Shown: piece by piece, positions 12,109-59,832 of the stretch
Numbering within the stretch: the stretch's first letter is position 1
Layout: every line of letters starts with the position of its first letter
NCBI GenBank assembly: GCA_020832545.1
Contig: JAFIEK010000004.1
Location: forward strand, 62,001 to 126,000
Reading direction: 5' to 3'
From: Pararhodobacter sp.
GTDB lineage: Bacteria; Pseudomonadota; Alphaproteobacteria; Rhodobacterales; Rhodobacteraceae
DNA length: 64,000 nt
Translations under genes and position numbers: made by a program
The notes under the pieces: generated by a model
Seen by the model: only the letters and a program-made list of their open reading frames with translations
What the model was told of the DNA's origin: nothing
The model's database searches: none

Positions 12109-12469
12109 GGTCAGCACCTTTCGTGCTCTGGTCTTGCCAAGTCTATCCTCATGCCGCGTTGGCAACAACGGATGTATCCTTGTTTGCGCCGGGCCCGTTC
12201 GCGCATGCCTTGACCGAATCAATCACGCCATCTAGCCTCGATTTTCAGAAAACTGAATAAGCCTTTCATTTCACAAGGGTTATTCCCGTTCGGCGGGCCA
12301 TCGGCGTCAGCCTGACGCTGTGCGATGCCTTGGGCATGCTGCACATGTAACCATGTGCCGGAACCTCGCCCGGTGGCCGTGGCCGATCAAGCAGGCAGGG
12401 TGGTGCAGCGGCACCGACAGCTACCCCTGCCAAGACAAAACAATCCGCGCGCACCCATGAAGGAGGGTC
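12109..12469. other. Divergent intergenic region with a tight palindrome
   Basis: This 361-bp gap separates two outward-facing genes and should hold both promoters. The clearest structure is GCGTCAG-C-CTGACGC at 12304-12318, an almost continuous palindrome flanked by ATCG and CGAT. It could be a regulator site or a small hairpin. A weak AT-rich stretch lies near 12255-12290. The GAAGGAGGG just before 12470 is the ribosome site of the downstream gene. No other gene is visible. Confidence 0.4.
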
Positions 12470-34628: not shown

Positions 34629-36008
34629 TCAGGCAACCAGGGCCCCCTTGCGCACAAGGTCATCCGTGGTCAGCCGAATTCCCTTTTCAAGAATATCGAA
34701 CATCTGATCGACCTCATCGTGAGAGATGATCAGTGGCGGCGAGAAGACGCACATGTTCAGAAGCGGGCGCACAATCAGCCCCAGATCCCGGCAATGTGCA
34801 TCAATCAATCCACCGACGACCTTGTCCAGCGCCAGAGGGTCGCGCGCACTCTGGTCGGCCACGCATTCGACACAGCCCATCAGCCCCATGCCACGCGTAT
34901 CGCCGACCAGCGGAAGGGCGCGCAACGCCGCCAGCCGCTTCTGAAAATGAGGGGTCAGGGCGCGCACATGCTCCAGAACGCCCTCACGCTCGATAATCTC
35001 GATGTTCTTCAGCGCCGCTGCCGCGCTGACCGGATGGCCGGAATAGGTGAAACCGTTGGAGAACACCGCCCCTTGCGATGCGTCGCCCGATATATCCTCA
35101 AACAACCGCTCCGACAGGATGCAGGCACCCAGCGGTGCATATCCCGATGTCAGGCCCTTGGCGCTGGTGATGATGTCAGGCACCATCCCGAACACCGACT
35201 CTGATGCGAACCAGTGGCCCAGCCGCCCAAAACCCGTCACCACCTCATCGGCGATATAGAGCACATCATGACGGCGGCAGATTTCAAGGCAACGCCGGTG
35301 ATAGCCTTCAGGCGGCACAATCACCCCGCCGGAAGCCAAGATCGGTTCGGCGATAAAGGCCGCCACGTGATCGGCACCAAGCGACAGGATCGCCTTTTCC
35401 AGATCGGCGATCTTTGCCTCCAGAAACGCCTCGATGCTTGTTCCGGCGGGGCGGCGATAGGGGTTCACATCCGGCAGGAAATGCACCAGCGCATCAGCAT
35501 GGTCGAACCAGTTGCGATCACGCTCCTTGCCGCTGACGCTGGCCGACAGATAGGTTGACCCGTGATAGGCCTTCTGCCGGGTGATGAATATCTTCTTTTC
35601 AGGCTTGCCCAGCAAGTTGTTGCGAAACTGCACGAACCGCAAAGCGGTATCGACGGCTGTGGACCCGCCTGTGGTGAAGAACACTCGGTTCAGGTCGCCG
35701 GGCGTGCGCTGTGCGATCGCTGCTGCCAACTGCGCGCTGACCGGGCTGGTGCTGGAGAATGGCGAGAAATAGGCCATTTCCTGCGCCTGATAGGCCATGG
35801 CCTCGCCGATCTCCTGCCGCCCGTAACCAAGCTGCACACACCACATACCGCCGGGACCGTCGATGCGCGGGCGCCCGTCGCCTTCGATTACATAAATTCC
35901 GTTGGCTCGCTGCGTCACCATGCGCCCGCTGGCACCCAGATCTTCCATGGACTCCCACGGGTGAACAAAATGTCGAGCATCCAGATCAGAGATCATGTGG
36001 GACAGCAT
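34629..36008 (-). CDS. Class III (omega) aminotransferase
   Basis: A 459-residue PLP enzyme of the omega-amino-acid/putrescine:pyruvate class. Features seen are GGMWCVQLGYGRQEIGEAMAYQ, FTTGGSTAVDTALRFVQ, KAYHGSTYLSASVSG, the Walker-like PLP-Asp strand IADEVVTGFGRLGHWF and the lysine in ITSAKGLTSGYAPLGA. Substrates could include putrescine, beta-alanine, taurine or similar amines; the adjacent PotD-like binding protein favours a polyamine. AGGAG nine bases before the ATG at 36008 supports the start. It is divergent from a TetR gene, with a palindrome between them that is probably the operator. Confidence 0.85.
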   Translation of the reverse strand: MLSHMISDLDARHFVHPWESMEDLGASGRMVTQRANGIYVIEGDGRPRIDGPGGMWCVQLGYGRQEIGEAMAYQAQEMAYFSPFSSTSPVSAQLAAAIAQRTPGDLNRVFFTTGGSTAVDTALRFVQFRNNLLGKPEKKIFITRQKAYHGSTYLSASVSGKERDRNWFDHADALVHFLPDVNPYRRPAGTSIEAFLEAKIADLEKAILSLGADHVAAFIAEPILASGGVIVPPEGYHRRCLEICRRHDVLYIADEVVTGFGRLGHWFASESVFGMVPDIITSAKGLTSGYAPLGACILSERLFEDISGDASQGAVFSNGFTYSGHPVSAAAALKNIEIIEREGVLEHVRALTPHFQKRLAALRALPLVGDTRGMGLMGCVECVADQSARDPLALDKVVGGLIDAHCRDLGLIVRPLLNMCVFSPPLIISHDEVDQMFDILEKGIRLTTDDLVRKGALVA

Positions 36009-36815: not shown

Positions 36816-37856
36816 CTAGTCAGTTCCTGAACATGCAAACGCTGTGGTGCTGCGAGCCTTGAGGCTGACGGGAAACCGAAAGTGGACGATCTGGTCACTT
36901 TCAAGGTCAGCGACACTGCGGACCAGATCCTGACCAGCGCGCACGCCAATCTCTTGCGCGGGGATGCGGACGGTTGTCAACGCGGGAAAACTGTCGGCAG
37001 ATCCTACAAAATCACCGATTCCGATGATGGAAATATCCTGCGGGATGCAAAGACCCTGTTCCATTGCAGCTGCGATGGCGCCTTGCGCTATGACGTCATT
37101 GCCGCAAATCAGCGCCGTCAGCGACTGATCCCGCTGAAGTAACTCCTGACAGGCCGCTTTCGCATGCGCGATACTGTATAGCGATTGCACCGCCCAGGCA
37201 TCCGGACAATCGATACCGGCTTCGCGCAGCACCTCTCTGGCGGCGTCGAGTCTGCCACGGGCCCGGTCATTTTCAGCGGTCGGCGGAAAGATAAAACCAA
37301 TCCGGCGATGGCCGAGGGACAGGATATGCCGGGCAGCGACTTGCCCCGCCTCTCTGTTGTCCGACCCGATGCACGAAATCCGCGATTGGTCAGAATAGCT
37401 CCAGGCGGCGACGACCGGGACATTCTGAGACTTGAACAACTGGTAGGTATCTTCGCTGTGATCCAGACCAATCAGAGCAATGCCGTCAACACGATGTTCC
37501 AGCAGCTTGCGGATGACCCTGTATTCGGTGCGCAGATCATAGTTATGGGTCGCCAAGAGCAGCGTGAACCCCAGATCTGACACCGTATCGTTGAAGGATT
37601 GCACCAGTTCGGCAAAGATCGAATAATTCACCGTCGGAACCACCAGCCCCAAGGTGGCACTGCGCCTGCCATGCATCGTCTGGGCAGCACGGTTGCGGAT
37701 ATAGCCCGTCTTGCGAACGGCCTTTTCGATCTTCTTGCGCGTGGTCGGGCTGACAAGGTCAGGATGATTCATTGCCCGCGACACTGTCGCCGGGGATACG
37801 CCTGCAACCTTCGCAACGGTAACAATATCAGCTTTATATGTTTGTTTTATAACCAT
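36816..37856 (-). CDS. LacI-family transcriptional regulator
   Basis: A 346-residue regulator. The HTH at 10-65 reads DIVTVAKVAGVSPATVSRAMNHPDLVSPTTRKKIEKAVRKTGYIRNRAAQTMHGRRS, and the periplasmic-binding-protein-like effector domain follows (GLVVPTVNYSIFAELVQSFND, VDGIALIGLDHSEDTY and ISIIGIGDFVGSADSFPALTTVRIPAQEIG). It is divergent, by 96 bp, from the acylating aldehyde dehydrogenase gene and should control that CoA-ligase/TTT operon. A candidate LacI half-palindrome lies in the gap. The inducer would be the imported organic acid or a CoA derivative. Confidence 0.9.
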   Translation of the reverse strand: MVIKQTYKADIVTVAKVAGVSPATVSRAMNHPDLVSPTTRKKIEKAVRKTGYIRNRAAQTMHGRRSATLGLVVPTVNYSIFAELVQSFNDTVSDLGFTLLLATHNYDLRTEYRVIRKLLEHRVDGIALIGLDHSEDTYQLFKSQNVPVVAAWSYSDQSRISCIGSDNREAGQVAARHILSLGHRRIGFIFPPTAENDRARGRLDAAREVLREAGIDCPDAWAVQSLYSIAHAKAACQELLQRDQSLTALICGNDVIAQGAIAAAMEQGLCIPQDISIIGIGDFVGSADSFPALTTVRIPAQEIGVRAGQDLVRSVADLESDQIVHFRFPVSLKARSTTAFACSGTD

Positions 37857-37882
37857 TATTGCCGACTTTTGGGTCTGATTTA

Positions 37883-37896
37883 TGAAAACATTTGCA
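37883..37896. promoter_or_regulatory. LacI-type operator candidate
   Basis: TGAAAACATTTGCA matches the general LacI-family operator form TGnAAnC-GnTnnCA except for A in place of the central G. It lies in the 96-bp gap between the LacI and aldehyde dehydrogenase starts. AT-rich flanks around it probably hold the -10 elements. Confidence 0.5.
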
Positions 37897-37952
37897 ATAC
37901 TATTTTCATCACATACGGTTGAGTTTGTAAATCGATCCTTGGGGAGGGGAAC

Positions 37953-39362
37953 GTGGCATTGCAGGGATTGTGCGATCAGGTTGACGCCCTTGTTGTCCGC
38001 GCCCGGCAGGCCCAGGCCGAGTTTGAGTCAGGTGGGAGTCAGGTGCGCTATGACCGGGCAGCCGCCGCCGCCGCCTGGGCGATTATGGAGCCGGAGCGAA
38101 ATGCCAGACTTGCGGAACTGGCGGTTCAGTCAACCGGGCTGGGGAACGTCGCGGATAAGATCACCAAGAACCATCGAAAGACACTTGGCCTGATGCGCGA
38201 CATTGCGGGTGTGCCAACATTTGGCGTGCTGTCGGACGATCTGGCAACAGGCATCACCGAAATTGCCCGACCGCTGGGTGTTGTCGGGGCGGTCGTTCCA
38301 TCGACCAACCCGGCTGCGACGCCGGCCAACAATATTATCAACGCCTTGAAATGCGGCAATGCCATCATCCTGTCCCCATCGCCAAAAGGGGTGGCCTGCT
38401 GCGAGTTGCTGATCGATTTCATCCATGCCGAATTCGCAAAGACTGGTGAAAACACGGCGCTTGTGCAGATGGTCCCCCCTCCGGGCAGCAAGGTGGCAAC
38501 CCAGAGACTGCTGGAACTGGTGGACCTTGCCGTCGTGACCGGCAGTCAGGACAACGTGCGCCGTGCCTATTCAAGCGGAACGCCCGCTATCGGGGTTGGT
38601 GCCGGGAACGTCACCGTGATCGTGGATGAAACGGCAGACATTGCCGCGGCGGCCAGAAAAATCGCCGCTTCAAAGACCTTCGACAATGCAACCTCGTGTT
38701 CTTCCGAGAATGCTCTGGTGGTCGTGGATGCTGTCTATGAGGACTTTTTGGCCGCGCTGACGGCAGAAGGCGGCGCGCGTGTGCCGCAGGCCGAGGCCGC
38801 AGGCATTGTTGCAAAGCTCTGGCCTGACGGGCATCTGAACCGCGAAGTCATCGCCAAGGATGCCGATGTTTTACTGGAGAAGCTGGGGCTGACGGGCAAG
38901 GTGCCGTCCAGCACGCGCTTTATCGCGGTCGAAACGGATGGGATAGGCCCCGATCATCCCTTGTCCGGCGAAAAACTCAGCCGGGTTGCCGCGCTCTACC
39001 GCGCCCGCGACTATGACCATGCTGTTGATATCACGCGGCAGGTGCTGACGTTTCAGGGGGCCGGTCATTCGCTTGGGCTGCATACCACCGATACCCGGCG
39101 CCCCCTGTCGTTGGGCGCGCAGATGCCGACCTGCCGGGTCATTGTCAATCAGGCGCATTGTTTTGCAACCGGGGGGGCGTTCGACAATGGCTTGCCGTTT
39201 TCATTGTCCATGGGCTGTGGCAGCTGGGGCGGAAACTCCATCGATGACAATCTGCACTGGCGACATTTCATGCAGCGCACCAGAGTGGTCCGCCCCATCG
39301 CATCGCGGGAACCAACGCTTGATGTAATCTTCTCGGATTACTGGTCAGAGGTGGGGAAATGA
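37953..39362 (+). CDS. sauS: Acylating aldehyde dehydrogenase, SauS-like (sulfoacetaldehyde dehydrogenase candidate)
   Basis: A 469-residue CoA-acylating aldehyde dehydrogenase read from a GTG with GGGGAGGGG upstream. Motifs are PLGVVGAVVPSTNPAATPANNIINALKCGNAIILSPSP, VTGSQDNVRRAYSSGTPAIGVGAGNVTVIVDETADI and the catalytic Cys in DNATSCSSENALVVVD. Length and motifs fit the AdhE/EutE/SauS group. A following CoA ligase (ATGA overlap), a LacI regulator and an organic-acid transporter reproduce the sulfoacetate pathway of Cupriavidus (sulfoacetyl-CoA to sulfoacetaldehyde). No xsc gene is in the window. A short carboxylate other than sulfoacetate remains possible. Confidence 0.72.
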   Translation: MALQGLCDQVDALVVRARQAQAEFESGGSQVRYDRAAAAAAWAIMEPERNARLAELAVQSTGLGNVADKITKNHRKTLGLMRDIAGVPTFGVLSDDLATGITEIARPLGVVGAVVPSTNPAATPANNIINALKCGNAIILSPSPKGVACCELLIDFIHAEFAKTGENTALVQMVPPPGSKVATQRLLELVDLAVVTGSQDNVRRAYSSGTPAIGVGAGNVTVIVDETADIAAAARKIAASKTFDNATSCSSENALVVVDAVYEDFLAALTAEGGARVPQAEAAGIVAKLWPDGHLNREVIAKDADVLLEKLGLTGKVPSSTRFIAVETDGIGPDHPLSGEKLSRVAALYRARDYDHAVDITRQVLTFQGAGHSLGLHTTDTRRPLSLGAQMPTCRVIVNQAHCFATGGAFDNGLPFSLSMGCGSWGGNSIDDNLHWRHFMQRTRVVRPIASREPTLDVIFSDYWSEVGK

Positions 39363-40891
39363 CCACCCTCGCCACGTCGCCTCCTGACGGCACTGTGCGC
39401 GACTGGCTTGACCTGCGCGCCAAGGAACAGGGCACCGACCCAAGCCACATCTTCCCCGACGCGCCAACGCTGCACTGGGCGGAACTGCGCGCCGAAGCCG
39501 TCGAAATCGCTGCGAGGCTGGCCGGGCTGGGGTTGCAAAAAGGGGATTGTGTGGCGGTGATGTTGCCCAACAGCAGACAGGGAATCCTGTGTCTGTTCGG
39601 CGCGCTTTACGGTGGGTTTCGAACGGCGCTGATAAATCTTGTCGCTGGCGCAGAGGCGATAGGCTATGCCCTGACCCATTCAGAAGCGAAGATCGTTCTG
39701 GTCGGCACGGCGCAGGCCAGTCTGTTCGAAATGGCGACGCAGGCGCACCAAGTTACCGCCCGGACCCTGACTGTCGGCGAGCAGATTGACTGGCCGGACG
39801 CTGCCATGCCCGGATCACTGGACGAACTTGGCCCGCAGGACCCGTCGATTCTGATGTATACTTCGGGGACGACAGGACGGCCCAAGGGCGTTCTGCACAC
39901 CCATGCCAGCCTGCTTGCCGGCGGTTGGACAACTGCCCTGGCGCATCGCTTGTCGGCTGAGGATCGTGCGCTTTGTGTTTTGCCGATCTATCACATCAAC
40001 GGTCTGTGCGTGACAGTGATTGGCCCATTGGTTTCCGGCGGGTCTGCGGTGGTTTGCGAAAAGTTTTCATCCAGCCGCTTCTGGTCGATCTGCAAGCAAT
40101 ATCAGGTGACGTGGTTTTCTGTTGTCCCGACGGTCATATCGCATTTGCTGCACGGTGTGGCTGACCCTGATGCAGACACCAGATCGCGGATACGGTTCGG
40201 ACGCTCCGCTTCATCGGCTCTGGCGATAGAGACCCAGATGGCCTTTCAGACACGTTTCGGCATCCCCATTATCGAGACAATGGGCCTGACCGAGACGGCT
40301 GCACAGATCCTGTCAAACCCGTTGCCGCCGGGGGTACGCAAGATAGGCTCTCCGGGCAAGGCGTTCGGCAATGAGGTTGTCATTCTGTCGAATGATCTGA
40401 AACCCGCCCCACCCGATACCGAGGGCGAGATCGCTGTACGCGGCCCCAATGTCATGGCCTGCTATTTCCGCAATCCTGAGGCAACTGCTGCGACCTTTAC
40501 AGACGACGGCTGGCTGAGGACCGGTGATCTGGGACGGATGGACGAGGACGGCTATGTCTTTGTGACCGGTCGGCTGAAAGAGTTGATCATCAAAGGTGGC
40601 GAGAACATTGCCCCGCGCGAAGTCGATGAAGTTCTCTACGGGCATCCGGACGTGGTAGAGGCGGCGGCCTTCGCCCGCCCCTGCGTGCGATACGGTGAGC
40701 GGGTCGAGGCGGCTGTCAAGCTGCGCGACCACGCAACCGTGCGCAGCGAGGATCTCATGCTGCTGTGTCAGCGCAAGCTGGGCGAATTCAAATGCCCGTC
40801 GGTAATCCATATCCTTGATGAACTGCCCAAGGGGCCATCAGGCAAAATACAACGACTCAAACTGGCAGAGGAGACCCAAGTGAAGGCGTAG
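39359..40891 (+). CDS. sauT: Acyl-CoA ligase, SauT-like (sulfoacetate-CoA ligase candidate)
   Basis: A 510-residue ANL-family ligase. The P-loop is ILMYTSGTTGRPKGVLHTHAS; the adenylate-binding area has IIETMGLTETAAQILSNPLPPG; the hinge and C-terminal domain read DDGWLRTGDLGRMDEDGYVFVTGRLKELIIKGGENIAPREVDEVLYGHPDVVEAAAFA; the lysine is in PKGPSGKIQRLKL. It starts inside the aldehyde dehydrogenase stop (ATGA), so the two are translated together: activation of an acid to its CoA ester followed by reduction to the aldehyde. TctC follows after 92 bp. Sulfoacetate is the best-fitting substrate by gene order, unproven. Confidence 0.75.
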   Translation: MTTLATSPPDGTVRDWLDLRAKEQGTDPSHIFPDAPTLHWAELRAEAVEIAARLAGLGLQKGDCVAVMLPNSRQGILCLFGALYGGFRTALINLVAGAEAIGYALTHSEAKIVLVGTAQASLFEMATQAHQVTARTLTVGEQIDWPDAAMPGSLDELGPQDPSILMYTSGTTGRPKGVLHTHASLLAGGWTTALAHRLSAEDRALCVLPIYHINGLCVTVIGPLVSGGSAVVCEKFSSSRFWSICKQYQVTWFSVVPTVISHLLHGVADPDADTRSRIRFGRSASSALAIETQMAFQTRFGIPIIETMGLTETAAQILSNPLPPGVRKIGSPGKAFGNEVVILSNDLKPAPPDTEGEIAVRGPNVMACYFRNPEATAATFTDDGWLRTGDLGRMDEDGYVFVTGRLKELIIKGGENIAPREVDEVLYGHPDVVEAAAFARPCVRYGERVEAAVKLRDHATVRSEDLMLLCQRKLGEFKCPSVIHILDELPKGPSGKIQRLKLAEETQVKA

Positions 40892-40983
40892 CGCGCCTTG
40901 GAGGAGGGACGCGCCGAACTCGACACGCAGACGGGGTGAGACACCACCCCCTGGACCTGAAAACACAAAGGGAGGAGACGTGG

Positions 40984-41934
40984 ATGACCAAGTTTCGGAG
41001 AACGCTTTTTGGCTCGGTTCTGATTGCAGGGGCTCTGGCCATGACCGGGGCCGCGACGGCGCAGGATTACCCGAACCGACCCATTGAACTGATCGTGACA
41101 TTCGGGCCCGGCGGCGGGGCGGATGTGATGGGACGTCAGATAGCGCAAATTCTTGAAGCTGATCTTGGCGTGTCCATCCCGGTCACGAATGTCGGCGGCG
41201 CGTCCGGTAACGCGGGGCTGACGCGGCTGCGGACAAGTCCGGCCGATGGCTATACGATGGGGACACTGATTTCGCTCACCGTAGCATCCTGGGCTTCGGG
41301 AATCGGGGACAATACGCTTGACGATTTCCGGGTTATTGGCATCGTGCAAAGTACGCCGTCATTCCTGTTTGTCGCATCCGACAGTCCGTTTGAAACCGCC
41401 GAGCAATTGCTGGAACACGCCCGGGCGAACCCCGGGGAACTCACGGTCGCAACCTCCGGATACGGCACACAGGATGATGTTGCGTTGATTACAATGGCCG
41501 ATCAGGGCGTTGACATGGTGAACGTCCCGTTTTCAGCACCGGGTGAACGTTATGCTGCCCCTCTGGGCGGACATACCGACGTGATCTATGAAGAGCCCGG
41601 AGATGTCGGACAGTTTCTGGAATCCGGCGAATATCGTTCCTTGATGATCTTCGCAGCAGAACGCCACCCTGAGTTTCCGGATGTGCCGACAGCGGGCGAA
41701 CTGGGCCTCGATATGGTCTATCTGAACACATTCCGCACACTGGCCGTTCCTGCGGCAACGCCGGATGACGTATTCGCACGCCTTGAGGCGGCTGTGATTG
41801 CTGCAACCGAAACCGACCAATGGCAGGCGTTTTGTGCGCAGACCTACACCTGTCTGGAGCCGCTGACCGGAGATGCGGCACAGGAGGAAGTCAACACGTT
41901 CTATCATGCGATTGCGGCGCAGTTGGACGACTGA
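40984..41934 (+). CDS. tctC: TTT transporter substrate-binding protein (TctC family)
   Basis: A 316-residue protein of the Bug/TctC family. Signal peptide MTKFRRTLFGSVLIAGALAMTGAATAQ, then DYPNRPIELIVTFGPGGGADVMGRQIAQILEADLGVSIPVTNVGGASGNAGLTRLRTSPADGYTMG, the hallmark opening. The FGPGGGAD loop and GGASGNAG bind a carboxylate via backbone and water contacts in known structures. GGGAGGAG precedes the ATG. It supplies the ligand to TctB/TctA encoded next. The position directly after sauST suggests the ligand is the same acid as the ligase substrate. Confidence 0.9.
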   Translation: MTKFRRTLFGSVLIAGALAMTGAATAQDYPNRPIELIVTFGPGGGADVMGRQIAQILEADLGVSIPVTNVGGASGNAGLTRLRTSPADGYTMGTLISLTVASWASGIGDNTLDDFRVIGIVQSTPSFLFVASDSPFETAEQLLEHARANPGELTVATSGYGTQDDVALITMADQGVDMVNVPFSAPGERYAAPLGGHTDVIYEEPGDVGQFLESGEYRSLMIFAAERHPEFPDVPTAGELGLDMVYLNTFRTLAVPAATPDDVFARLEAAVIAATETDQWQAFCAQTYTCLEPLTGDAAQEEVNTFYHAIAAQLDD

Positions 41935-41938
41935 CTGA

Positions 41939-42529
41939 ATGTCACAAGGTAGGATAGAAACAGGGGCCGCCAATGAGCGCGCCCCTACACTGTCGCAACT
42001 GATGCTGAGCATCATATCACGGGTTGCCTTGCCCGGCGGTTTTCTTGCGGCGGCGCTGATACTGCCATCCTACATGTTTGATCGCCCTCTGCGCATCCGC
42101 GCCCGGGGTCTTGGTCCTGATGCCTGGCCGAGTGTTTTTCTGAATGCAATCGTTGCAATTTCCCTGTTCTGGATCATTGCCGAACTCTGGGCGCTTTATG
42201 CCTCGCACAAGAGAAAGCGTACATCACCAATCCAGCAGGAGATTGAAGCCTACAACTATTCCAAGGCTGCTGCCGGGATTTGTCTGCTGCTTGCTTTCGG
42301 CTGGCTTTTGCCAAATGTCGGATTTCCCATCTCTGCCACCCTTTTCATCTTCTGCTGGTGTTTCCTGGGTGGCATTCGCAATCCTGTCGCCCTCATTCTT
42401 GTCAGCTTCGTTGGAATGATCACGCTGCTTTGGGTCTTCATGGGGCTTGCGCTCATGCCACTCAGCCGTGGCACCGGGGTGTTCGACGACTTTACCGTCT
42501 GGTTCCTCAGACTTGTCCGAATTTACTGA
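41939..42529 (+). CDS. tctB: TTT transporter small membrane subunit (TctB family)
   Basis: A 196-residue protein with four hydrophobic spans (ALPGGFLAAALILPSYMF, AWPSVFLNAIVAISLFWIIAELW, AAAGICLLLAFGWLLPNVGFPISATLFIFCWCFLGG and LILVSFVGMITLLWVFMGLALMPL). The DRPLRIRARGLGPDAWPSVF loop is typical of TctB proteins. It is 4 bp after tctC. TctB is the small integral membrane subunit of the tripartite tricarboxylate transporter family. The start codon is supported only by close spacing. Confidence 0.85.
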   Translation: MSQGRIETGAANERAPTLSQLMLSIISRVALPGGFLAAALILPSYMFDRPLRIRARGLGPDAWPSVFLNAIVAISLFWIIAELWALYASHKRKRTSPIQQEIEAYNYSKAAAGICLLLAFGWLLPNVGFPISATLFIFCWCFLGGIRNPVALILVSFVGMITLLWVFMGLALMPLSRGTGVFDDFTVWFLRLVRIY

Positions 42530-42583
42530 CCCGGCCCTTCTGGATGCGATCTGCGCAACAGAGAATGACGAGAAGGATCTGAT

Positions 42584-44104
42584 GTGAGCACATTCGAGCT
42601 GCTGGGCATGGGGTTTCAGAACGCGTTCGCGTTGTCGGCCTTGCTGACCATCGTCATCGGGCTGATGCTGGGTGTGATTGCCGGGGCATTGCCGGGCGTT
42701 TCCTTCGTGAATGCGATGGCAATGGCGTTGCCGTTCACCTATTCCATGGCTCCGACGCAGGCCATGCTGTTTCTCGGCGCCATCTATGTCGGCGGTGTCT
42801 TTGGCGGTTCCATCTCGGCGATCATCATCAACGTGCCCGGTACTCCGGCGTCATTGCCGGCTTGCTGGGACGGCTATCCCATGACCCAGCGCGGCGAAGT
42901 GCGGCGCGCACTTGCTGTCGCCATTCTCGCGTCCGCAATCGGGGGGCTGACAAGCGCATTGGTTCTGTCCTTTGCCGCGGCGCCATTTGCAGTATTTGCC
43001 CTGCGCTTTTCGCAGCCAGAGTTCTTTGCGGCCACGGTCCTTGGGCTGATCAGTGTCATTGCCATCTCAAAGGACCGACCGATCGTCAGCCTTTTGTCAC
43101 TGTTTCTCGGCATACTCATCGGCACTGTGGGGGTTGACCCGCAGTATGGTGTCGCGCGTTTCACCTTTGGTGCGCCGGCGATGCAAAGTGGAATCAACTT
43201 TGTCGTTGTGATGATCGGGCTTTTTGCGATCAGTGAAGTTATTGACCTGATTGCAACCAACCGCGATCTGCGCCCATCCAAGGCCGCGAGTGCACGTGGA
43301 CAGGTCAGCTTGCGTGATTTCTGGGAGGTGCGCGGCGCGATTGCACGGGGTTCGGGGATCGGCAGCATACTGGGCGTGATTCCGGGGGCCGGTGCGACAC
43401 CGGGTGCCGTCATCGCCTATGGTATCGAAAAACAGGTATCGCGCGATGGCGACAAGTTCGGCACCGGGATCATGGCCGGTCTGGCCGCGCCTGAGGCAGC
43501 CAAGAATGCGACCACGGGTTCCGCCATGGTGCCACTTCTGACCCTCGGCATCCCCGGAAGTGCGGCGACGGCCATCATGCTGGCCGCCATGATGCTGCAC
43601 GGCGTGAACCCCGGACCGCTGCTGTTCCTGAATGATCCGACAATGGTTTACACCATCTTCGCGGCGATGATCCTGGCCAATATCCTGATGATCTTTGCCG
43701 GAATTGGCGTTGCGCAGTTCTTTTCGACACTGATGAAGACACCGCCCGCAGTTCTTGGGGCCTTCATAATCTTGCTAAGCATCGTCGGAGCCTACGGGGT
43801 CCGGAACAACATTTTTGATGTCTATGTGTGCCTCTTTTTCGGGCTGGTCGGCTGGGTAATGAAACGGACTGGCTTTCCGACTGCACCCCTTGTCCTTGGC
43901 GTAATTCTGGGGCCATTGGCGGAACGCTATTTCATGACCTCCCTGGCCAACTACAATCAGGACTGGACCGTGTTCTTTACCCGGCCAATCAGCGGAACGA
44001 TCCTCTCGCTTGCGGCTGTGTTCGCGATCTGGTCGCTCTGGCCGGTAATCCGGGCACAGTATCGTTCTGTTGTTCTCCTCCTGGCAGGTAGAGCAGGTTC
44101 ATAG
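42584..44104 (+). CDS. tctA: TTT transporter large membrane subunit (TctA family)
   Basis: A 506-residue protein with about twelve membrane spans. Conserved TctA segments seen are GLMLGVIAGALPGVSFVNAMAMALPFTYSMAPTQAMLFLGAIYVGGVFGGSISAIIINVPGTPASLPACWDGYPM, IGSILGVIPGAGATPGAVIAYGIEKQ and FGTGIMAGLAAPEAAKNATTGSAMVPLLTLGIPGSAATAIML. The start is GTG with AAGGA at the right distance. It forms the transport channel with TctB, using an ion gradient rather than ATP. It ends the LacI-regulated group. Confidence 0.95.
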   Translation: MSTFELLGMGFQNAFALSALLTIVIGLMLGVIAGALPGVSFVNAMAMALPFTYSMAPTQAMLFLGAIYVGGVFGGSISAIIINVPGTPASLPACWDGYPMTQRGEVRRALAVAILASAIGGLTSALVLSFAAAPFAVFALRFSQPEFFAATVLGLISVIAISKDRPIVSLLSLFLGILIGTVGVDPQYGVARFTFGAPAMQSGINFVVVMIGLFAISEVIDLIATNRDLRPSKAASARGQVSLRDFWEVRGAIARGSGIGSILGVIPGAGATPGAVIAYGIEKQVSRDGDKFGTGIMAGLAAPEAAKNATTGSAMVPLLTLGIPGSAATAIMLAAMMLHGVNPGPLLFLNDPTMVYTIFAAMILANILMIFAGIGVAQFFSTLMKTPPAVLGAFIILLSIVGAYGVRNNIFDVYVCLFFGLVGWVMKRTGFPTAPLVLGVILGPLAERYFMTSLANYNQDWTVFFTRPISGTILSLAAVFAIWSLWPVIRAQYRSVVLLLAGRAGS

Positions 44105-44462
44105 CGCGGCAACAAGCCAGTCGCAGGGCGCGCAACGGATGCGGTAACGGGATCGTGCCGCTTCTGCGCGCATGCACCACCCGCCAAGCCTAGGGCAATC
44201 CGCGCGCGAGCGGACGGGTGCGCCGCATGAAGCTGTTGGTAGGCCTCACCTCACATCACTCAAACCCTCCTCGTTGATCTGATTCCAGGCATTTGCTGCG
44301 CATTTGTGCAGAGGATGCGTTGGGTCTGGCCGGAGCCATCGCACTTGAACCGCCAGGGTTGAGACGTGTTGACACACGCCGGAGCGAGGGGTAAATGATC
44401 CAAATGGATTATATGAGATGTTTTTCATTCATTTGAATCTCTCTCAAGCCTTGCAGGACCCA
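44105..44462. other. Intergenic region with a sigma70-like promoter candidate
   Basis: This gap of about 360 bp separates the tctA end from the aminotransferase start. TTGACA at 44369-44374, a 17-bp spacer and TAAATG at 44392-44397 make a fair promoter for the downstream operon; the -10 is weak. AGGA before 44463 serves as ribosome site. No gene, repeat or RNA was recognised in the first 250 bp. Confidence 0.4.
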
Positions 44463-45794
44463 ATGACCCATCTTCTTCACAGAACAATCCACACAGACTT
44501 GCCGGTGGTGGCCTCGGGTCACGGGTCATATCTGACCGACTCAGAGGGGCGTAGCTATCTTGATGCGAGCGGCGGCGCTGCGGTCTCGTGCATCGGTCAC
44601 GGCCACCCGCGCGTGCGTGCCGCTGTGATCGAGCAGATGGACAAGATCGCTTACGCCCACACTTCTTTCTTCACCACTCAGGCCGCAGAAGACCTTGCAG
44701 AGCTGCTGGTGCGCGGTGCACCAGCAGGCATCAGCCATGCCTATGTCCTTAACGGCGGCTCTGAGGCGGTGGAGGCGGCGCTGAAGATGGCGCGGCAATA
44801 CTTCATCGAGCAGGGCCAGCCCGCGCGCCGCCACATCATTGCGCGACACCAGAGCTATCATGGAAACACGCTGGGTGCGCTGGCAACTGGCGGAAACAAG
44901 CGGCGGCGAGAGCAGTTCATGCCGCTGCTCATCGAAACGCATCACATTGACCCATGCTATGCGTATCGTCATCAGCGCCCGGACGAAACCGAGGAAGACT
45001 ATGGCCTGCGCGCGGCGCAACAGCTTGAGGACAAGATCCTTGAGCTTGGGCCAGACACGGTGATTGCCTTCGTCGCCGAGACCGTCGTTGGGGCGACGTC
45101 AGGGGCGGTGCCCCCGGCGCGGGGTTACTTTGGTCACATTCGTGAAATCTGCGACCGATATGGCGTCTTGTTGATTCTGGACGAGGTCATGTGCGGAATG
45201 GGGCGCACCGGAACCCTGCACGCCTGTGAGCAAGAGGGCATCTCGGCAGATATCGAGATCGTCGCCAAGGGTCTGGCCGGAGGGTACCAGCCCGTCAGCG
45301 CGGTTCTCGTGTCGGACACTGTTTTTCAGGCGTTTTCAGCCGGGTCCGGTGCGTTCCAGCATGGCCATACCTACATGGGGCATCCCGTCGGTGCCCGGGT
45401 AGCGCTGGAGGTACAGCGAATTATCGCTGAAGAAGATCTGCTCGAAAACGTCAGGAGAACCGGAGCCTATCTCATGTTGGCGCTGAAGGCGCGCTTCGGC
45501 AACATGCCGGAGATCGGTGATATCCGCGGACGTGGATTGTTGATCGGGCTCGAACTGGTTCGGGACCGCGTCACAAAGGAACCTTTCGATCCTGCTCTGA
45601 CCCTGCATGCGCGCATCAAGCGGGCAGCGATGACTGAGGGGCTGCTTGTCTATCCGGGCGGTGGCACGGTTGATGGCGTTTCCGGCGATCATGTGCTGCT
45701 CGCGCCGCCTTTCACAATCAATCACGCAGAAGCAGATCTCATAGCCGAAAGGCTTGGACGAGCCATCGAGACATCACTCGCTCAAGTGGAGTGA
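44463..45794 (+). CDS. Class III aminotransferase
   Basis: A 443-residue PLP enzyme. Motifs are YLDASGGAAVSCIGHGHPRVRAAVIEQMDKIAY, LNGGSEAVEAALKMARQYF, RHQSYHGNTLGALATGG, ILDEVMCGMGRTGTLHACEQEGI and the PLP lysine in IVAKGLAGGYQPVSAVLVSD. The acceptor is probably pyruvate or 2-oxoglutarate. The ATG at 44463 follows AGGA; the ORF track begins 15 codons earlier. It lies 42 bp upstream of a dipeptide-type ABC operon on the same strand, so the imported compound probably carries an amine that this enzyme removes. Substrate unknown. Confidence 0.85.
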   Translation: MTHLLHRTIHTDLPVVASGHGSYLTDSEGRSYLDASGGAAVSCIGHGHPRVRAAVIEQMDKIAYAHTSFFTTQAAEDLAELLVRGAPAGISHAYVLNGGSEAVEAALKMARQYFIEQGQPARRHIIARHQSYHGNTLGALATGGNKRRREQFMPLLIETHHIDPCYAYRHQRPDETEEDYGLRAAQQLEDKILELGPDTVIAFVAETVVGATSGAVPPARGYFGHIREICDRYGVLLILDEVMCGMGRTGTLHACEQEGISADIEIVAKGLAGGYQPVSAVLVSDTVFQAFSAGSGAFQHGHTYMGHPVGARVALEVQRIIAEEDLLENVRRTGAYLMLALKARFGNMPEIGDIRGRGLLIGLELVRDRVTKEPFDPALTLHARIKRAAMTEGLLVYPGGGTVDGVSGDHVLLAPPFTINHAEADLIAERLGRAIETSLAQVE

Positions 45795-53489: not shown

Positions 53490-55055
53490 TCAGAGGGCAC
53501 CGAAACCGCCCCCGCCCGGGGTGATCATGGTCACCTCATCGTCCGGTTGCATCTCCAGCTTGCCCGCCGGACGTATCGGCATTCCATTCACCTCAAACCG
53601 ACCTACCGCCCCGTCGCCGCCACCCGCGAGACCCTCGGGCGCCACCTCAAGCCGGCTTGGCACCGCGTTCAAAAGCCAGGGCGTGCCAGTTCGCATGCGA
53701 AAGACAATACGTTGACCATCACCACCGGGCTGCGCGCCCCGGCCACCGGTTCCGGGTTCAAGTTGCTTGCATCGAAACTCTATCGGATATGCGGCCTCAA
53801 GCACCTCGACCGGTACTGCTGACACGCCGGTCGGATAGCAGATTGCCGGTAATCCGGGTTTGGTTGCCCGCGCGCCCATACCCCCGGAATAGTTGAACAT
53901 CGAACTGGTGAACGCCTGACCTTGCGCATCCCGGCCATGAATCTGCATGGTCCAGACCGCGCCGGAGCCTTCAGCAACCACGCGATCAGGCACGATCTGC
54001 GCAAGTCCCTTGAGGATCGGAAACGGCACATACATGCCGACGACATGGCGGGCAGCTACCGGCGAGGGGTACTTCGCATTCAGGATACAGTTGTCCGGCA
54101 ACACCAGCCGGATCGGCGCAAGGCTGCCTGCGTTGTTCGGAAGATCAGGGTCAAGCGTCGATCGCACGGCGAACGTGGCATAGGCGTGGGTATAGGCCGG
54201 AACCACGTTTATCCCCATCGGAGAGCGCGCAGAAGACCCGGTAAAGTCAATCACGATCTCGCCCTTTTCGGGCTCCACGGTGACGGCGCAGCGCAGTTCA
54301 ATCGTTTCTCCGCCCGGCACATCGAAACGCGAAACGCCATGCGCCGTGCCCGCAGGCAAGGCACCGATGCATGCGCGCGTTGCCGCCTCGGAGCGTGAGA
54401 TAATCTCATCCGAGAGCGTTTCGATATCGTCAAATCCATAGCGGTCACAAAGCGCATTGAGCCGCTTCGCAGCGATCATACCGCTGGAGACCTGGGCACC
54501 CAGATCGCCCAGAAGTGCATCGGGCGTCCGCACGTTGCGGGTGATGATATCGAAGAGCGTCGCATTGGGCACGCCCGCCTCATACAGCTTCAGAACCGGA
54601 ATCCAGAGCCCTTCTTCATGAATGTCCCGCGCCCCCGCACCAATGCCGTAGCCGCCGATATCGGTGTGATGAATGGTAGACCCAGCATAACCGATGATCC
54701 TGTCGCCGCGAAAGATCGGCGACAGAACGGTGATGTCAAAGAAATGCCCCGCCGACATCCAGGGGTCGTTGGTGATCAGCACATCGCCGGGCCGCAACGC
54801 CGAAACGTCGGTCTTGTCCAGCAGGTTCGCGGCGGCGGCTGCGAGCGAGTTGATATGCCCCGGCGTGCCAGTCACCGCCTGTGCCACCATCCGCGCACGA
54901 GCGTCGAACAGCCCGTTGGCCAGATCGCCTGCCTCGCGCACGATCGGGCTGAAGGCAATACGCTGCAACGCGCGGGCCTGTTCGCTGACAATTCCGATCA
55001 GGTTGCTCCAGAGTATTTGCAGTTGCGCGCCGTCCATGGGCCTGTCCTCCGTCAT
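53490..55055 (-). CDS. hyuB: Hydantoinase B/oxoprolinase family subunit
   Basis: A 521-residue HyuB protein. Seen motifs are LQILWSNLIGIVSEQARALQRIAFSPIVREAGDLANGLFDARARMVAQAVTGTPGHINSLAAAAANLL, DVLITNDPWMSAGHFFDITVLSPIF and GYAGSTIHHTDIGGYG, the standard family opening with an Asp/His metal site, plus GGMGARATKPGLPAICYPTG and the C-terminal DDEVTMITPGGGGFGAL. HyuA and HyuB form ATP-dependent amidohydrolases of hydantoins, oxoproline or, in the acetone-carboxylase branch, carboxylate-forming enzymes. The start overlaps the hyuA stop by ATGA. Confidence 0.9.
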   Translation of the reverse strand: MTEDRPMDGAQLQILWSNLIGIVSEQARALQRIAFSPIVREAGDLANGLFDARARMVAQAVTGTPGHINSLAAAAANLLDKTDVSALRPGDVLITNDPWMSAGHFFDITVLSPIFRGDRIIGYAGSTIHHTDIGGYGIGAGARDIHEEGLWIPVLKLYEAGVPNATLFDIITRNVRTPDALLGDLGAQVSSGMIAAKRLNALCDRYGFDDIETLSDEIISRSEAATRACIGALPAGTAHGVSRFDVPGGETIELRCAVTVEPEKGEIVIDFTGSSARSPMGINVVPAYTHAYATFAVRSTLDPDLPNNAGSLAPIRLVLPDNCILNAKYPSPVAARHVVGMYVPFPILKGLAQIVPDRVVAEGSGAVWTMQIHGRDAQGQAFTSSMFNYSGGMGARATKPGLPAICYPTGVSAVPVEVLEAAYPIEFRCKQLEPGTGGRGAQPGGDGQRIVFRMRTGTPWLLNAVPSRLEVAPEGLAGGGDGAVGRFEVNGMPIRPAGKLEMQPDDEVTMITPGGGGFGAL

Positions 55056-57118
55056 GTTCTTTCCGCCACGAGACTGCCGTTCTGATGCAAGCTCAGTGTC
55101 CAGCCTGGCAGGATGAATGTCGTCGTCTCGCGCTCCTCAATGATCACCGGCCCCGGAATGCTCTGATCTACGACCAGAGCATTCCGGTCATAGATCGGCA
55201 CGGTCTCGGGTTTGCCACCGATCCAGACTGTCCGATTGCGCGGCACAGGAAGCGTGCCTGAGGCAGGACTGGCCGCGGCCGCACGCTCGGGTGGCGCACC
55301 GCGGGCAGTAACGTGCCAGTTCACCAGTTCGATCGGCATATCCGCGAGCTTGAGGCCATATTGCGCCACGTACTCCGCCTCGAATATGTCGCGCATCGCA
55401 CTTGCATCGCGGGTTACGCGCGGGTCGAAAGGCAGCGTGATGCGCAGTTCCGATTGTTGCCCCAGATACCGCAGATCGGCCCCGAAACCAAAGCCGATGT
55501 CGTCCTCGCCCAGGCCCGCCTCGGACAGCGCCTCTATGCCATCGGTGACCATTGCACCGATGATCCGTGCGGTTTCATGCCGGTCGATCCCGTCCAGAAG
55601 CCCGACCTGGCTGCGTACCAGATCAATCTGGACCGGCGTCACCAGCGTTCCAAAGGCCGACAAGACGCTTGCAAGCGGGGGAAAGATCACCATGCGGCTG
55701 TCAATCAGATCGGCCACCCGGCAGGCATGCACCGGGCCCGCGCCGCCGAAGGCCAGCATCGGCAGCCCACGATAGTCGATGCCGCGATCTGTGGCATGCG
55801 CCCGTGCCGCGGCGGCCATCTGTTCGCAGACCACCTCGAACACTGCCCATGCCGTCGCCTCGGGCGCGAGGCCGAGCTTGTCGCCAAGCCGCGCTATCGC
55901 CGCCCGCGCGGCGTCAGCGTCAAGTGGCATGTCGCCGCCAAGGAAGCGCGCAGGGTCCAGTATCCCGATCACCACATCCGCGTCGGTCACACAAGGCTGG
56001 GTGCCCCCGCGCCCGTAACAGACCGGCCCGGGGATTGACCCAGCGCTTTCCGGCCCGGTCTTCAGCAATCCCAGCGCATCCACCCAGGCGATGGAGCCGC
56101 CACCGGCACCGATCTCGATCAGGTCGATTGACGGCACCGTAACCGGCATTCCTGAACCCGGCTTGAAGCGATAGCGCCGGTCCACCTCGAAGCTGCCGGT
56201 GACAAGGGGCTGGCCGTTCTGGATCATGCAGGCCTTGGCTGTCGTACCGCCCATGTCGAACGAGATCAGATCAGGTAAACCGAACTCCCGCGAGAAGTGG
56301 CAAGCCACCAGCGCGCCCGCGGCGGGACCGGACTCGATCATCCTGACCGGCATGCGCCCGGCTCGATCAGCACCGATGACCCCGCCCGAAGACAGCATGA
56401 TAAGCGGCTTTTGCGTAAAGCCCCGCCGTGCCAGTTCTTCACTGAGCGCGGTCAGATAGGGCTGGGTGATCGGGCGCGTGTAGGCGTTGATCGCCACCGT
56501 CGATGTGCGCAGGTATTCCCGCATTTGCGGTGCGATCTCGGACGATATCGAGACGAATATTTCAGGGGCTTCGCGTGCGAAGACTTCGGCGACCAACCGC
56601 TCGTTGGCACCGTTGCGATAGGCGTTGAGCAGGCACACGCCGATAGAAACGATACCCTGCTCAAGGCAGGTCCGGGCGATGCGGGCGATCTCTTCGGCTT
56701 CTGCGGGCCTGGCCACGGTTCCGTCTGCCCAGGTGCGCTCATTCAGGACGAAGGTGCGCTCTGGCGGGATCAGCGGTTCGGCGAACTCGATCTGGGGGTC
56801 ATACATGTCATAGCGATGCTCGTCGCGGATACGCAGGATATCTGCGAACCCTTCCGTCAGAATCAGCCCGACGGCAGGCCCCTTGCGTTCGATCAGCGCG
56901 TTGGTGACCACGGTTGTCGCATGGACCACCACATCATTGACATCGGTCGGCGTGATCCCGGCGCGGGCCAGCACATCGTCAACGCCACGAAAGAAGCCTT
57001 CGCGCAGGTCGCCATGTGTGGTCAGCGTCTTCTGCACCAGAGCCGAGCCATCGCTTCCCAGCAAAACGGAATCCGTAAATGTGCCGCCGATATCGACCGC
57101 AAGTGCGTATCGTGTCAT
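55052..57118 (-). CDS. hyuA: Hydantoinase A/oxoprolinase family subunit
   Basis: A 688-residue protein of the actin-like ATPase class. The N-terminal AVDIGGTFTDSVLLGSDG is the phosphate-1 motif. ALIERKGPAVGLILTEGFADILRIRDEHRYDMYDPQI, MLSSGGVIGADRAGRMPVRMIESGPAAGALVACHFSREFGLPDLISFDMGGTTAKACMI and LAFGGAGPVHACRVAD follow, all typical HyuA/oxoprolinase segments. It hydrolyses ATP to open a cyclic amide or activate a carbonyl group. It starts in an ATGA overlap with iclR and ends in one with hyuB. The substrate is presumably what the TRAP transporter imports. Confidence 0.92.
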   Translation of the reverse strand: MTRYALAVDIGGTFTDSVLLGSDGSALVQKTLTTHGDLREGFFRGVDDVLARAGITPTDVNDVVVHATTVVTNALIERKGPAVGLILTEGFADILRIRDEHRYDMYDPQIEFAEPLIPPERTFVLNERTWADGTVARPAEAEEIARIARTCLEQGIVSIGVCLLNAYRNGANERLVAEVFAREAPEIFVSISSEIAPQMREYLRTSTVAINAYTRPITQPYLTALSEELARRGFTQKPLIMLSSGGVIGADRAGRMPVRMIESGPAAGALVACHFSREFGLPDLISFDMGGTTAKACMIQNGQPLVTGSFEVDRRYRFKPGSGMPVTVPSIDLIEIGAGGGSIAWVDALGLLKTGPESAGSIPGPVCYGRGGTQPCVTDADVVIGILDPARFLGGDMPLDADAARAAIARLGDKLGLAPEATAWAVFEVVCEQMAAAARAHATDRGIDYRGLPMLAFGGAGPVHACRVADLIDSRMVIFPPLASVLSAFGTLVTPVQIDLVRSQVGLLDGIDRHETARIIGAMVTDGIEALSEAGLGEDDIGFGFGADLRYLGQQSELRITLPFDPRVTRDASAMRDIFEAEYVAQYGLKLADMPIELVNWHVTARGAPPERAAAASPASGTLPVPRNRTVWIGGKPETVPIYDRNALVVDQSIPGPVIIEERETTTFILPGWTLSLHQNGSLVAERT

Positions 57119-57924
57119 GTGTCCTCCAGAAAACCGAGATTGCCCGAAATTCGCCGTGCCGCTGTCAGCAGTGCCGTGACGAGCTTGTCTTCCGGCGGCT
57201 GACCCAGCGAATGAAGCGGCCCCGCCAGCGTCAGCGTGGCAACCATCTGCTTGTGCACGTCAAACACCGGGGCCGACAACGCGCTGACGCCGTTCAGCGT
57301 CTGCTCCGGCGCTTCGGCCCAGCCCTGACGGCGCACCTGTTCAACCTCAGCTTCCAGCGCGGCGATGTCGGTATTGGTGTGATCTGTCCAGCGGCGCAGC
57401 GGGCGACTGCGCACCACGTTCCAGGCCGCCCCGTCACCAAAGGCGAGCGCGACCTTGCCCTGTGCAGAAGCGTGGAAATCCAACAATCCCCCCGGGCGCG
57501 TCACGATCTCTACGGGATGAACATTGCGCACCATGTCGAGAATGCGCATCCCCTCCGGTTCAACCTGCGAGAGCGTTACGGTAAACCCGGTCTGGTCGCG
57601 CAGCGCCAGCATCATCGGCCGGGCATCGCGCAGCAGATCGTTGCGGTCTGCCAGCGCCTGCGCCAGATGATAGAGCTTGAACGACAGCTGATAGCGCTCG
57701 GTATCCGGGTCTTGCAGAACATAGCCCATGGCCGAGAGGGTGCGAAGATAGCGAAAGGCTCGCACCTTCTGTATTCCCAGCCGCCGCGCCAGATCGCTAA
57801 GAGCAACAGGCGCGCCGATGTCGGCCATCTCCTCGATCAATAGAAAGGCAAGCTGCGTGGACTGGTTGGCGCTTTTGTCCAGCGCGACAGGTTCAGTGGT
57901 TTCAGGGCGGGGTTTGCGCGGCAT
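57115..57924 (-). CDS. IclR-family transcriptional regulator
   Basis: A 269-residue regulator. The winged HTH lies at about 18-80 (STQLAFLLIEEMADIGAPVALSDLARRLGIQKVRAFRYLRTLSAMGYVLQD), followed by an IclR effector domain (LALRDQTGFTVTLSQVEPEGMRILDMVRNVHPVEIVTRPGGLLDFHASAQGKVALAFG and GVSALSAPVFDVHKQMVATLTLAGP). It lies inside the operon between dctM and hyuA, joined by one-base and ATGA overlaps. It probably regulates the whole unit through the palindrome upstream of dctP. Confidence 0.9.
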   Translation of the reverse strand: MPRKPRPETTEPVALDKSANQSTQLAFLLIEEMADIGAPVALSDLARRLGIQKVRAFRYLRTLSAMGYVLQDPDTERYQLSFKLYHLAQALADRNDLLRDARPMMLALRDQTGFTVTLSQVEPEGMRILDMVRNVHPVEIVTRPGGLLDFHASAQGKVALAFGDGAAWNVVRSRPLRRWTDHTNTDIAALEAEVEQVRRQGWAEAPEQTLNGVSALSAPVFDVHKQMVATLTLAGPLHSLGQPPEDKLVTALLTAARRISGNLGFLEDT

Positions 57925-59198
57925 CAGTGAAACAATCCTGGCAGAAACAATGACAATGAGGGAACCAGCGCCACCAGCGCCAATACCAGAAGGCTGATCC
58001 CGATGAGTGGAAGCACGCTGCGCGTCACCTCTTCAAGCGGTGCACGCGCGATGGCGCTGACTATGAACAATACCAGACCCACAGGTGGTGTGATCATTCC
58101 GATCATAAGATTGAGCACCACCATGATGCCGAACTGAACCGGGTCCATGCCTATTGCCGGTGCCAGCAGCGACAGAATCGGCATGGCCAGGATCATTGCC
58201 GCCAGCGGCTCAAGAAACAGCCCCAGCACCAGTAGCACCAGATTGAGCATCAGCAGCAGCAAAAGCGGGTTGTCAGTGATCCCGAGGAAGCCGCCCGCAA
58301 TGCGCCGCGGGATATTCTCGATGCCGAGAACGAAAGAGGTCATGCTCGCCATCGCCACCACCAGCAGAATACCCGCAGAAAGCGTGGCGGTTTCATAAAG
58401 GCTCTGCCCGATCCTGCGCAGTGTCAGCGCCCGGTAGACAATGCCTCCCACCAAAAGCGCATAGGCACAGGCGATGGCAGCGGCCTCGGTCGGTGTGAAA
58501 ACACCGCCCCGGATACCACCCACAATAATCACAGGTAGCAACAGGGCCGGGATTGCGGACATGGCTGCGGTTCTGCGCTGACCCTGCGGCACCACCGGCG
58601 GCAGCGGATGGTCCTCTCTGCGCGCTTTCCACAGGGCATAGATCACCAGAAACACTGCAAGCGTGATCGCCGGAAAGATACCAGCCAGGAACAGGTCGCC
58701 GATCGATGTGCTGGTCAGCACACCATACAGGATCAGCGCCAGTGAAGGCGGCACCAGTGGACCGGTCAGCGACCCTGCCGCAGTCAGAGCCGCGGCATAA
58801 GCGGCGCGGTATCCATCGCGCACCATCGCCGGAATCATCACGCTGCCGATCGCTGACGCCTCGGCGGTCGCGGCGCCACTTACGCCTGAAAACATGAGCC
58901 CGGAGATCACGTTGACAACCGCCAGACCGCCCCGGATCTGCCCCACCAGCATCTGCGCGAAGCGCACGATCTGATGGGTCAGGTTCGCCGCATTCATGAT
59001 ATTGCCAGCGAGGATGAACAGCGGGATGGTCAGCAGCACAAAATTGTCGATTCCTGCGATCATGCGCTGCGGAAACGCCAGCAGCAGGTGCAGGTTTCCG
59101 GTGATCACCAGATAACTCAGTGAGGCGAGGCCAAGGCTTATCGCGATGGGTAGGCCGATCACCAGAAACACGATGAATGCAACAAGATAGAGGGTCAT
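57924..59198 (-). CDS. dctM: TRAP transporter large permease (DctM)
   Basis: A protein of about 424 residues with about twelve spans. DctM landmarks seen are FAQMLVGQIRGGLAVVNVISGLMFSGVSGAATAEASAIGSVMIPAMVRDGYRAAYAAALTAAGSLTGPLVPPSLALILYGVLTSTSIGDLFLAGIFP, GGIRGGVFTPTEAAAIACAYALL and GIMVVLNLMIGMITPPVGLVLF. The start at 59198 (MTLYLVAFIV) overlaps the dctQ stop by ATGA; the ORF-track extension to 59339 lies within dctQ. It carries a Na+-coupled organic acid. Confidence 0.93.
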   Translation of the reverse strand: MTLYLVAFIVFLVIGLPIAISLGLASLSYLVITGNLHLLLAFPQRMIAGIDNFVLLTIPLFILAGNIMNAANLTHQIVRFAQMLVGQIRGGLAVVNVISGLMFSGVSGAATAEASAIGSVMIPAMVRDGYRAAYAAALTAAGSLTGPLVPPSLALILYGVLTSTSIGDLFLAGIFPAITLAVFLVIYALWKARREDHPLPPVVPQGQRRTAAMSAIPALLLPVIIVGGIRGGVFTPTEAAAIACAYALLVGGIVYRALTLRRIGQSLYETATLSAGILLVVAMASMTSFVLGIENIPRRIAGGFLGITDNPLLLLLMLNLVLLVLGLFLEPLAAMILAMPILSLLAPAIGMDPVQFGIMVVLNLMIGMITPPVGLVLFIVSAIARAPLEEVTRSVLPLIGISLLVLALVALVPSLSLFLPGLFH

Positions 59199-59770
59199 GC
59201 CGCCTGCCCGTTCTGTGGATGCGCACGCAGATCTCCCACCCGCCCGCCATGGCGCCAGAGCAGAATATAGTGCACGATGTCCAGCGCGAAGCGCAGCGCC
59301 AACAACCCGAGGCCCACCGGCAGAGCGACGTAGACCCACCAGATATCCGGCGCCGGCACGCGGTCTCCGAACAGGTCTCCAAACAGGAAACGCAGTGCAG
59401 CGATCGGGCGATGCCCGATCCGGTCTGCGTAGCGCAGCCCGTAGATCACCAGCGTCACCAGAAGCCCGATCGCAAGCAAATTGCCAAAAATCGCAAGCGC
59501 CAGTCCGGCCCGGCGCGGCAACGCATCGCGCAGCATCGTGACGCCAGCAAGCTCGCCGCGCTCATAGGCCAGAGCGACGCCCAGAAACGTCGCCCAGATG
59601 AGCATGTGCCGCGATACCTCGTCGGCCCAGATCAGCGATATGCCAAAGCCATAGCGCAGCACGACCTGCGTGACGAGGACAACCAGCAAGAGGCCGATCA
59701 GCCCCGCCAGCACGCCACGCAGCACGGACGCATAGAGATGTTGCAGCCGTTTCACCACAAGCCTGCCCAA
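59195..59770 (-). CDS. dctQ: TRAP transporter small permease (DctQ)
   Basis: A 191-residue four-span protein. LAGLIGLLLVVLVTQVVLRYGFGISLIWADEVSRHMLIWATFLGVALAYERGELAGVTML is the conserved DctQ region with the W-x-E/D-E-V motif. The track start is a TTG. A GTG at 59755 or 59758, preceded by GGCAGG, is also likely. It ends in an ATGA overlap with dctM. Confidence 0.88.
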   Translation of the reverse strand: MGRLVVKRLQHLYASVLRGVLAGLIGLLLVVLVTQVVLRYGFGISLIWADEVSRHMLIWATFLGVALAYERGELAGVTMLRDALPRRAGLALAIFGNLLAIGLLVTLVIYGLRYADRIGHRPIAALRFLFGDLFGDRVPAPDIWWVYVALPVGLGLLALRFALDIVHYILLWRHGGRVGDLRAHPQNGQAA

Positions 59771-59832
59771 TATTTCCGGATTTTATGAAATTGCATCCCC
59801 CGCCGGTGCGCCCGGCAGGGGAAGACATTGGG

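Follow-up and report, generated by a model that had tools for sequence, protein, structure and literature searches.

A probable inducible sulfoacetate operon, sauST-tctCBA, with a conserved regulatory site and apparently exchangeable importers

Does an acylating dehydrogenase and CoA ligase pair followed by a tripartite tricarboxylate transporter (TTT) serve the uptake and breakdown of sulfoacetate? Sulfoacetate comes from the turnover of taurine and sulfoquinovose, and its importer decides who recycles its sulfur. The question is raised by a locus at 36816-44104 of the window, the 64-kb stretch of DNA that was analysed, in which lacI is divergent from the run sauS-sauT-tctC-tctB-tctA. Every gene named in a preliminary description of this DNA was found there, and in the order given. 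A LacI-family regulator, the probable repressor of the sau operon, is encoded at 36816-37856 on the minus strand and carries the Pfam LacI and Peripla_BP_3 domains. All other genes are on the plus strand: sauS for a predicted acylating (CoA-dependent) sulfoacetaldehyde dehydrogenase (37953-39362; GTG start; NCBIfam NF047625), sauT for a putative AMP-forming sulfoacetate-CoA ligase (39359-40891; Pfam AMP-binding), and genes for a tctC-type periplasmic binding protein (40984-41934; PF03401), a tctB-type small membrane subunit (41939-42529; PF07331) and a tctA-type large membrane subunit (42584-44104; PF01970). The start of sauT overlaps the stop of sauS by 4 bp (ATGA), so that translational coupling, as previously suggested, is plausible. 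The TTT is complete, as had been stated, with TctA (468 bits), TctC (105 bits) and TctB (41 bits) intact and above the Pfam gathering scores. TctC probably starts at ATG 40984 rather than at the alternative upstream GTG 40936, since the former gives a normal signal peptide, MTKFRRTLFGSVLIAGALAMTGAATAQ.

The dehydrogenase scored 682.6 bits against NF047625, whose cutoff is 600, and no other protein in the genome passed that cutoff. This equivalog match replaces the motif-based call by which the enzyme had been described as SauS-like. The rival models AdhE (335 bits), EutH-type ACDH (264 bits) and PRK15398 (EutE/PduP-like, 209 bits) each stayed under their own cutoffs, and an EutE/PduP identity was rejected on these scores. 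A malonate-semialdehyde identity was likewise rejected, as the methylmalonate-semialdehyde model gave only 28 bits; the closer kinship to either group that would have spoken against SauS was thus not seen in the model scores. The presumed catalytic cysteine is Cys249 in the motif TSCSSEN. The ligase is a type without a curated equivalog model; its best models were generic and every cutoff shown was missed, including that of malonyl-CoA synthase (282.5 bits; cutoff 558). Its motifs TSGTTGRPKG, TGDL, GRLKELIIKGG and PKGPSGK are complete. When the Caballeronia SauT, encoded between SauS and an MFS carrier, was used as a query, the ligase of the window came out top in the genome with 361.5 bits, ahead of a runner-up at 214.6 bits, at an identity of only 39-42%. 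Coupling to SauS in relatives and this best match support the earlier assignment of the AMP-forming ligase that overlaps sauS as a SauT.

Since the best models of SauT are generic AMP-forming ones, with the malonyl-CoA synthase model among those matched, and since TTT systems take many carboxylates (PMC5812351), SauST might act on another short acid (3-sulfopropionate, malonate, phosphonoacetate or another C2/C3 acid) imported by the TTT. This is very unlikely, because the malonyl-CoA synthase score lies well under its cutoff, the methylmalonate-semialdehyde model hardly registers SauS, and in relatives the neighbouring xsc and pta genes point to sulfoacetaldehyde.

A search of the genome for xsc, recommended in the preliminary description, found one Xsc over the cutoff (TIGR03457, 941 bits against 676). 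The gene is outside the window, at G000:C65, where it adjoins tauABC-like genes and a TauE-like exporter, and given this setting it could serve taurine only. A citrate synthase II-like gene (L017 8063-9199) closely follows xsc and the TauE-like gene in the same orientation, and no obvious taurine aminotransferase was seen among the genes scanned in the tauABC-xsc cluster. A single Pta-like protein (C38, open frame of 325 codons) scored 226-234 bits, below the Pta cutoff of 311, and is 37% identical to an xsc-linked Pta of Paracoccus. A SoeA-like protein at C37 shows 59% identity to the molybdopterin subunit encoded after sauSCD in Indioceanicola.

The association of sauS with xsc was followed across the family in a sample of 249 genomes, chosen at close to one for each genus. 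SauS matches were present in 40 of them, 39 being over the cutoff, and xsc was found in 36 of these 40 genomes versus 120 of the 209 without sauS (Fisher p 5.7e-5). The four sauS-bearing genomes without xsc were G026, whose SauS match is the one below the cutoff, G032, G161 and G182, the last being 86% complete. In G161, where xsc was missing at the threshold used, the sauS copy (G161:C107:3812-5182) carries one in-frame TAG, which may mean that the operon is decaying or that the assembly is wrong there.

Layouts in relatives were surveyed in the 80 best SauS loci from named genomes and in two plasmid loci. Type A, lacI<>sauST-tctCBA as in the window, was found in 14 others (among them Natronohydrobacter, Marivita lacus, Yoonia, Jannaschia and some Paracoccus); since 14 of the 80 best loci of other genomes keep the same gene order, the layout is not a product of chance. 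Type B, lacI<>tctABC-sauST, accounted for 57 loci (Ruegeria, Leisingera, Roseovarius, Sulfitobacter, Litoreibacter and others), a few of them cut by contig ends. Type C, lacI<>sauST-MFS, was seen at 11 loci (Paracoccus, Mesorhizobium), where an MFS carrier takes the place of the TTT in the SauU arrangement. In Paracoccus subflavus (L035, type A) the whole route is laid out in one run, lacI<>sauST-tctCBA-xsc-pta, and the type B locus L117 reads lacI<>tctABC-sauST-xsc-pta, also in one run, while xsc, a YeiH-type exporter and pta are close by at the type C loci L032, L043 and L101. These runs and neighbourhoods joining sauST with xsc and pta argue most strongly for a role of the TTT in sulfoacetate use. 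In addition, TTT genes accompany sauS-sauCD in the alphaproteobacterial clusters L100, L118 and L120, so ligases of the ADP-forming type also occur outside Bilophila-like anaerobes; a SoeABC-like molybdopterin oxidoreductase is annotated in L100 and L120, and xsc is near in L118 and L120.

The TTT itself shows a comparable attachment to the locus, and the earlier view that it takes the transporter place beside sauST holds in relatives. Close relatives of its TctA (66-76% identity) were found on nine plasmid records, all nine with sauS, and close relatives of its TctC (E<=1e-70) in only two of the 249 family genomes, both at sauS. At high similarity, this lineage thus occurs only beside sauS and looks dedicated to the sau locus. 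The TctA is 68% identical to that of the Azospirillum sauS-sauCD cluster and only 37% identical to type B TctA, no closer than to unrelated paralogs in the same genome; a single common TTT for all sau loci was rejected at this paralog level of identity. A tree of 95 TctA proteins placed type A and Azospirillum/Indioceanicola in one clade with support of 1.0, whose members are all sau-linked. Type B forms a separate clade, and its nearest sampled neighbour is a TctA of Roseovarius nubinhibens, the gene for which is in a run with comDE-like genes and a gene for an FMN-dependent dehydrogenase. From this gene order, with neighbours judged by eye, the R. nubinhibens locus is taken to be slcHFG. A third TTT lineage stands beside sauS in L118, together with sauCD and xsc, and in L124.

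Linkage of this kind suggests that the TTT of the window imports sulfoacetate. No curated NCBIfam model covers its TctA, TctB or TctC, and with its substrate predicted from sequence the TTT might import something else and merely sit in the operon, SauST alone handling sulfoacetate. Little probability is given to that arrangement, as the TctA/TctC lineage occurs at high similarity only beside sauS and, among relatives, fills the place held by an MFS carrier or by another TTT. Across Rhodobacterales and related groups, LacI and sauST stay the same but are joined by the TTT lineage of the window, by another TTT lineage or by an MFS SauU. It is likely that LacI, its putative 28-bp operator and sauST were kept while the importer was exchanged among three unrelated types, an MFS carrier and two TTT lineages that were recruited independently. 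Because close relatives pair the same enzymes with different importers, transporter specificity could be tested by simple swaps.

The regulator, which the preliminary description had placed divergently beside the operon, recurs with sauST in these layouts. Almost every relative has an ortholog of it, with 47-83% identity, at its sau locus. A conserved 28-bp site, ATGAAAACATTTGCAATACTATTTTCAT, lies at 37882-37909 (plus strand), with the arms ATGAAAA...TTTTCAT, and is a probable LacI operator. It was found in all LacI-linked sau loci for which the region upstream of lacI is in the sequence, with a diverged form in L081, and is kept across all three layouts, between lacI and sauS in types A and C or between lacI and tctA in type B. 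Its sequence is close to ATGAAAACRTTTGCAWNACTRTTTTCAT, and in some type C loci it is a perfect inverted repeat with 11-bp arms separated by 6 bp. A probable sauS promoter (37892-37919, plus strand) would have a -35-like TTGCAA at 37892-37897 within the site and a -10-like TACGGT at 37914-37919. The TTGCA and TA...T columns are kept across loci at fixed spacing, so that a bound repressor would cover the promoter.

In the genome of the window the site occurs once, even with up to three mismatches; a regulon beyond the operon was rejected on this ground, and xsc is apparently not under the site. Across the family sample 27 of the 249 genomes had the site, each in a single copy; every one of the 27 carries sauS, and the 209 genomes without sauS had no copy (p 1e-26, a value that overstates independence because the genera are related). 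In 26 of the 27 genomes the site and sauS share a contig and lie within 4.6 kb of each other; in the remaining one, an assembly split into about 300 contigs, they are on different contigs. An operator tied to SauS rather than to LacI was rejected, since the IclR-regulated loci L099, L100 and L103 are without the site. These patterns are consistent with binding of LacI to the 28-bp site as its operator. SauS together with the site offers a high-confidence genomic marker of sulfoacetate users in Rhodobacterales.

The proposal that this is a sulfoacetate pathway, made from the sequence of the window, has gained from a SauS over its cutoff, from xsc in the genome and from the runs of TTT, sauST, xsc and pta genes in relatives. 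In all, sauST-tctCBA is very probably an inducible sulfoacetate catabolic operon. In the mechanism envisaged, TctC would capture periplasmic sulfoacetate and TctAB would bring it in by secondary transport, a specificity suggested by gene linkage. SauT would convert sulfoacetate, ATP and CoA to sulfoacetyl-CoA, which SauS would reduce to sulfoacetaldehyde at the expense of NAD(P)H. From sulfoacetaldehyde and phosphate, Xsc, whose gene is elsewhere in the genome, would then form sulfite and acetyl phosphate; Pta would turn acetyl phosphate into acetyl-CoA, and sulfite might be handled by a SoeABC-like enzyme or a TauE-type exporter. The LacI-type protein would repress the operon by occupying the 28-bp site, which overlaps the probable sauS promoter, and the putative inducer releasing it may be sulfoacetate or a product of it. 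As to direction, a TTT with a periplasmic receptor works as an importer, and the ligase of the reverse route is ADP-forming, whereas the one here is AMP-forming. Both points make it extremely unlikely that the operon turns sulfoacetaldehyde into sulfoacetate for excretion, like the SqwD/SqwKL variant of the sulfo-TK pathway, even though an acylating dehydrogenase and a CoA ligase are known to work in reverse (PMC12890257).

How new is such a catabolic operon? The preliminary description held that a TTT for a C2 sulfonate would be new if confirmed, which was too strong. Hybrid clusters of sauST with a TTT, the latter proposed as the sulfoacetate importer, have been described in Arctic sponge symbionts (PMC12625764, 2025); the same paper cites a TTT, SauXYZ, with sauS-sauCD in Bilophila wadsworthia (Liu 2023), and SlcHFG of R. 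nubinhibens was known earlier as a sulfolactate TTT (PMC5812351). Likened by description and in other organisms, the sponge symbiont hybrids share SauS, SauT and a TTT with the window, and the Bilophila system, as far as it is described in PMC12625764, shares the TTT and SauS but has an ADP-forming SauCD in place of SauT. By the account given there of sauRSTU from Cupriavidus necator H16 (Weinitschke 2010), the roles and order of SauS and SauT agree with the window, and the transporter differs, an MFS SauU standing where the window has a TTT. Induction by sulfoacetate via SauR was shown in C. necator (PMC7057948). The Caballeronia sauS-sauT-MFS locus has an IclR-type regulator instead of a LacI-type one. 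The Azospirillum/Indioceanicola clusters L100 and L120 resemble the window in TTT and SauS, including the Azospirillum TctA already compared, but have ADP-forming SauCD and IclR regulators. SlcHFG is likewise a TTT for a short sulfonate, but a C3 one, and the presumed slcHFG TctA is only 36% identical and groups with the type B lineage.

The operon is thus known in kind, and the most interesting addition is the combination of conserved enzymes and switch with exchangeable importers. A published survey of LacI regulons, searched for the regulator of the window, did not mention sulfoacetate or sulfonates. The literature covered yielded nothing on the LacI-type regulator, on the 28-bp site or on importer exchange, which is weak evidence, as most subscription papers, including two primary papers on sulfoacetate, were outside the search. 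If transport is confirmed, these loci would form a well-defined natural set of C2-sulfonate importers that arose by convergence, together with a new LacI-type sulfoacetate sensor.

Some further features of the window were recorded. Class III aminotransferases of different subfamilies flank the sau operon on both sides, one at 34629-36008 (PRK07036), to which a BetI-like TetR gene is divergent, and one at 44418-45794 (PRK07483), with a peptide-type ABC transporter after it; neither is kept at the sau loci of relatives. Two long open frames of the minus strand, 10261-12222 (653 codons) and 16521-18725 (734 codons), gave no Pfam match and may be non-coding or may encode uncharacterised proteins. 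At 53490-60816, hydantoinase A/B (oxoprolinase-type) genes and a TRAP transporter (DctM, DctP) form a separate catabolic cluster.
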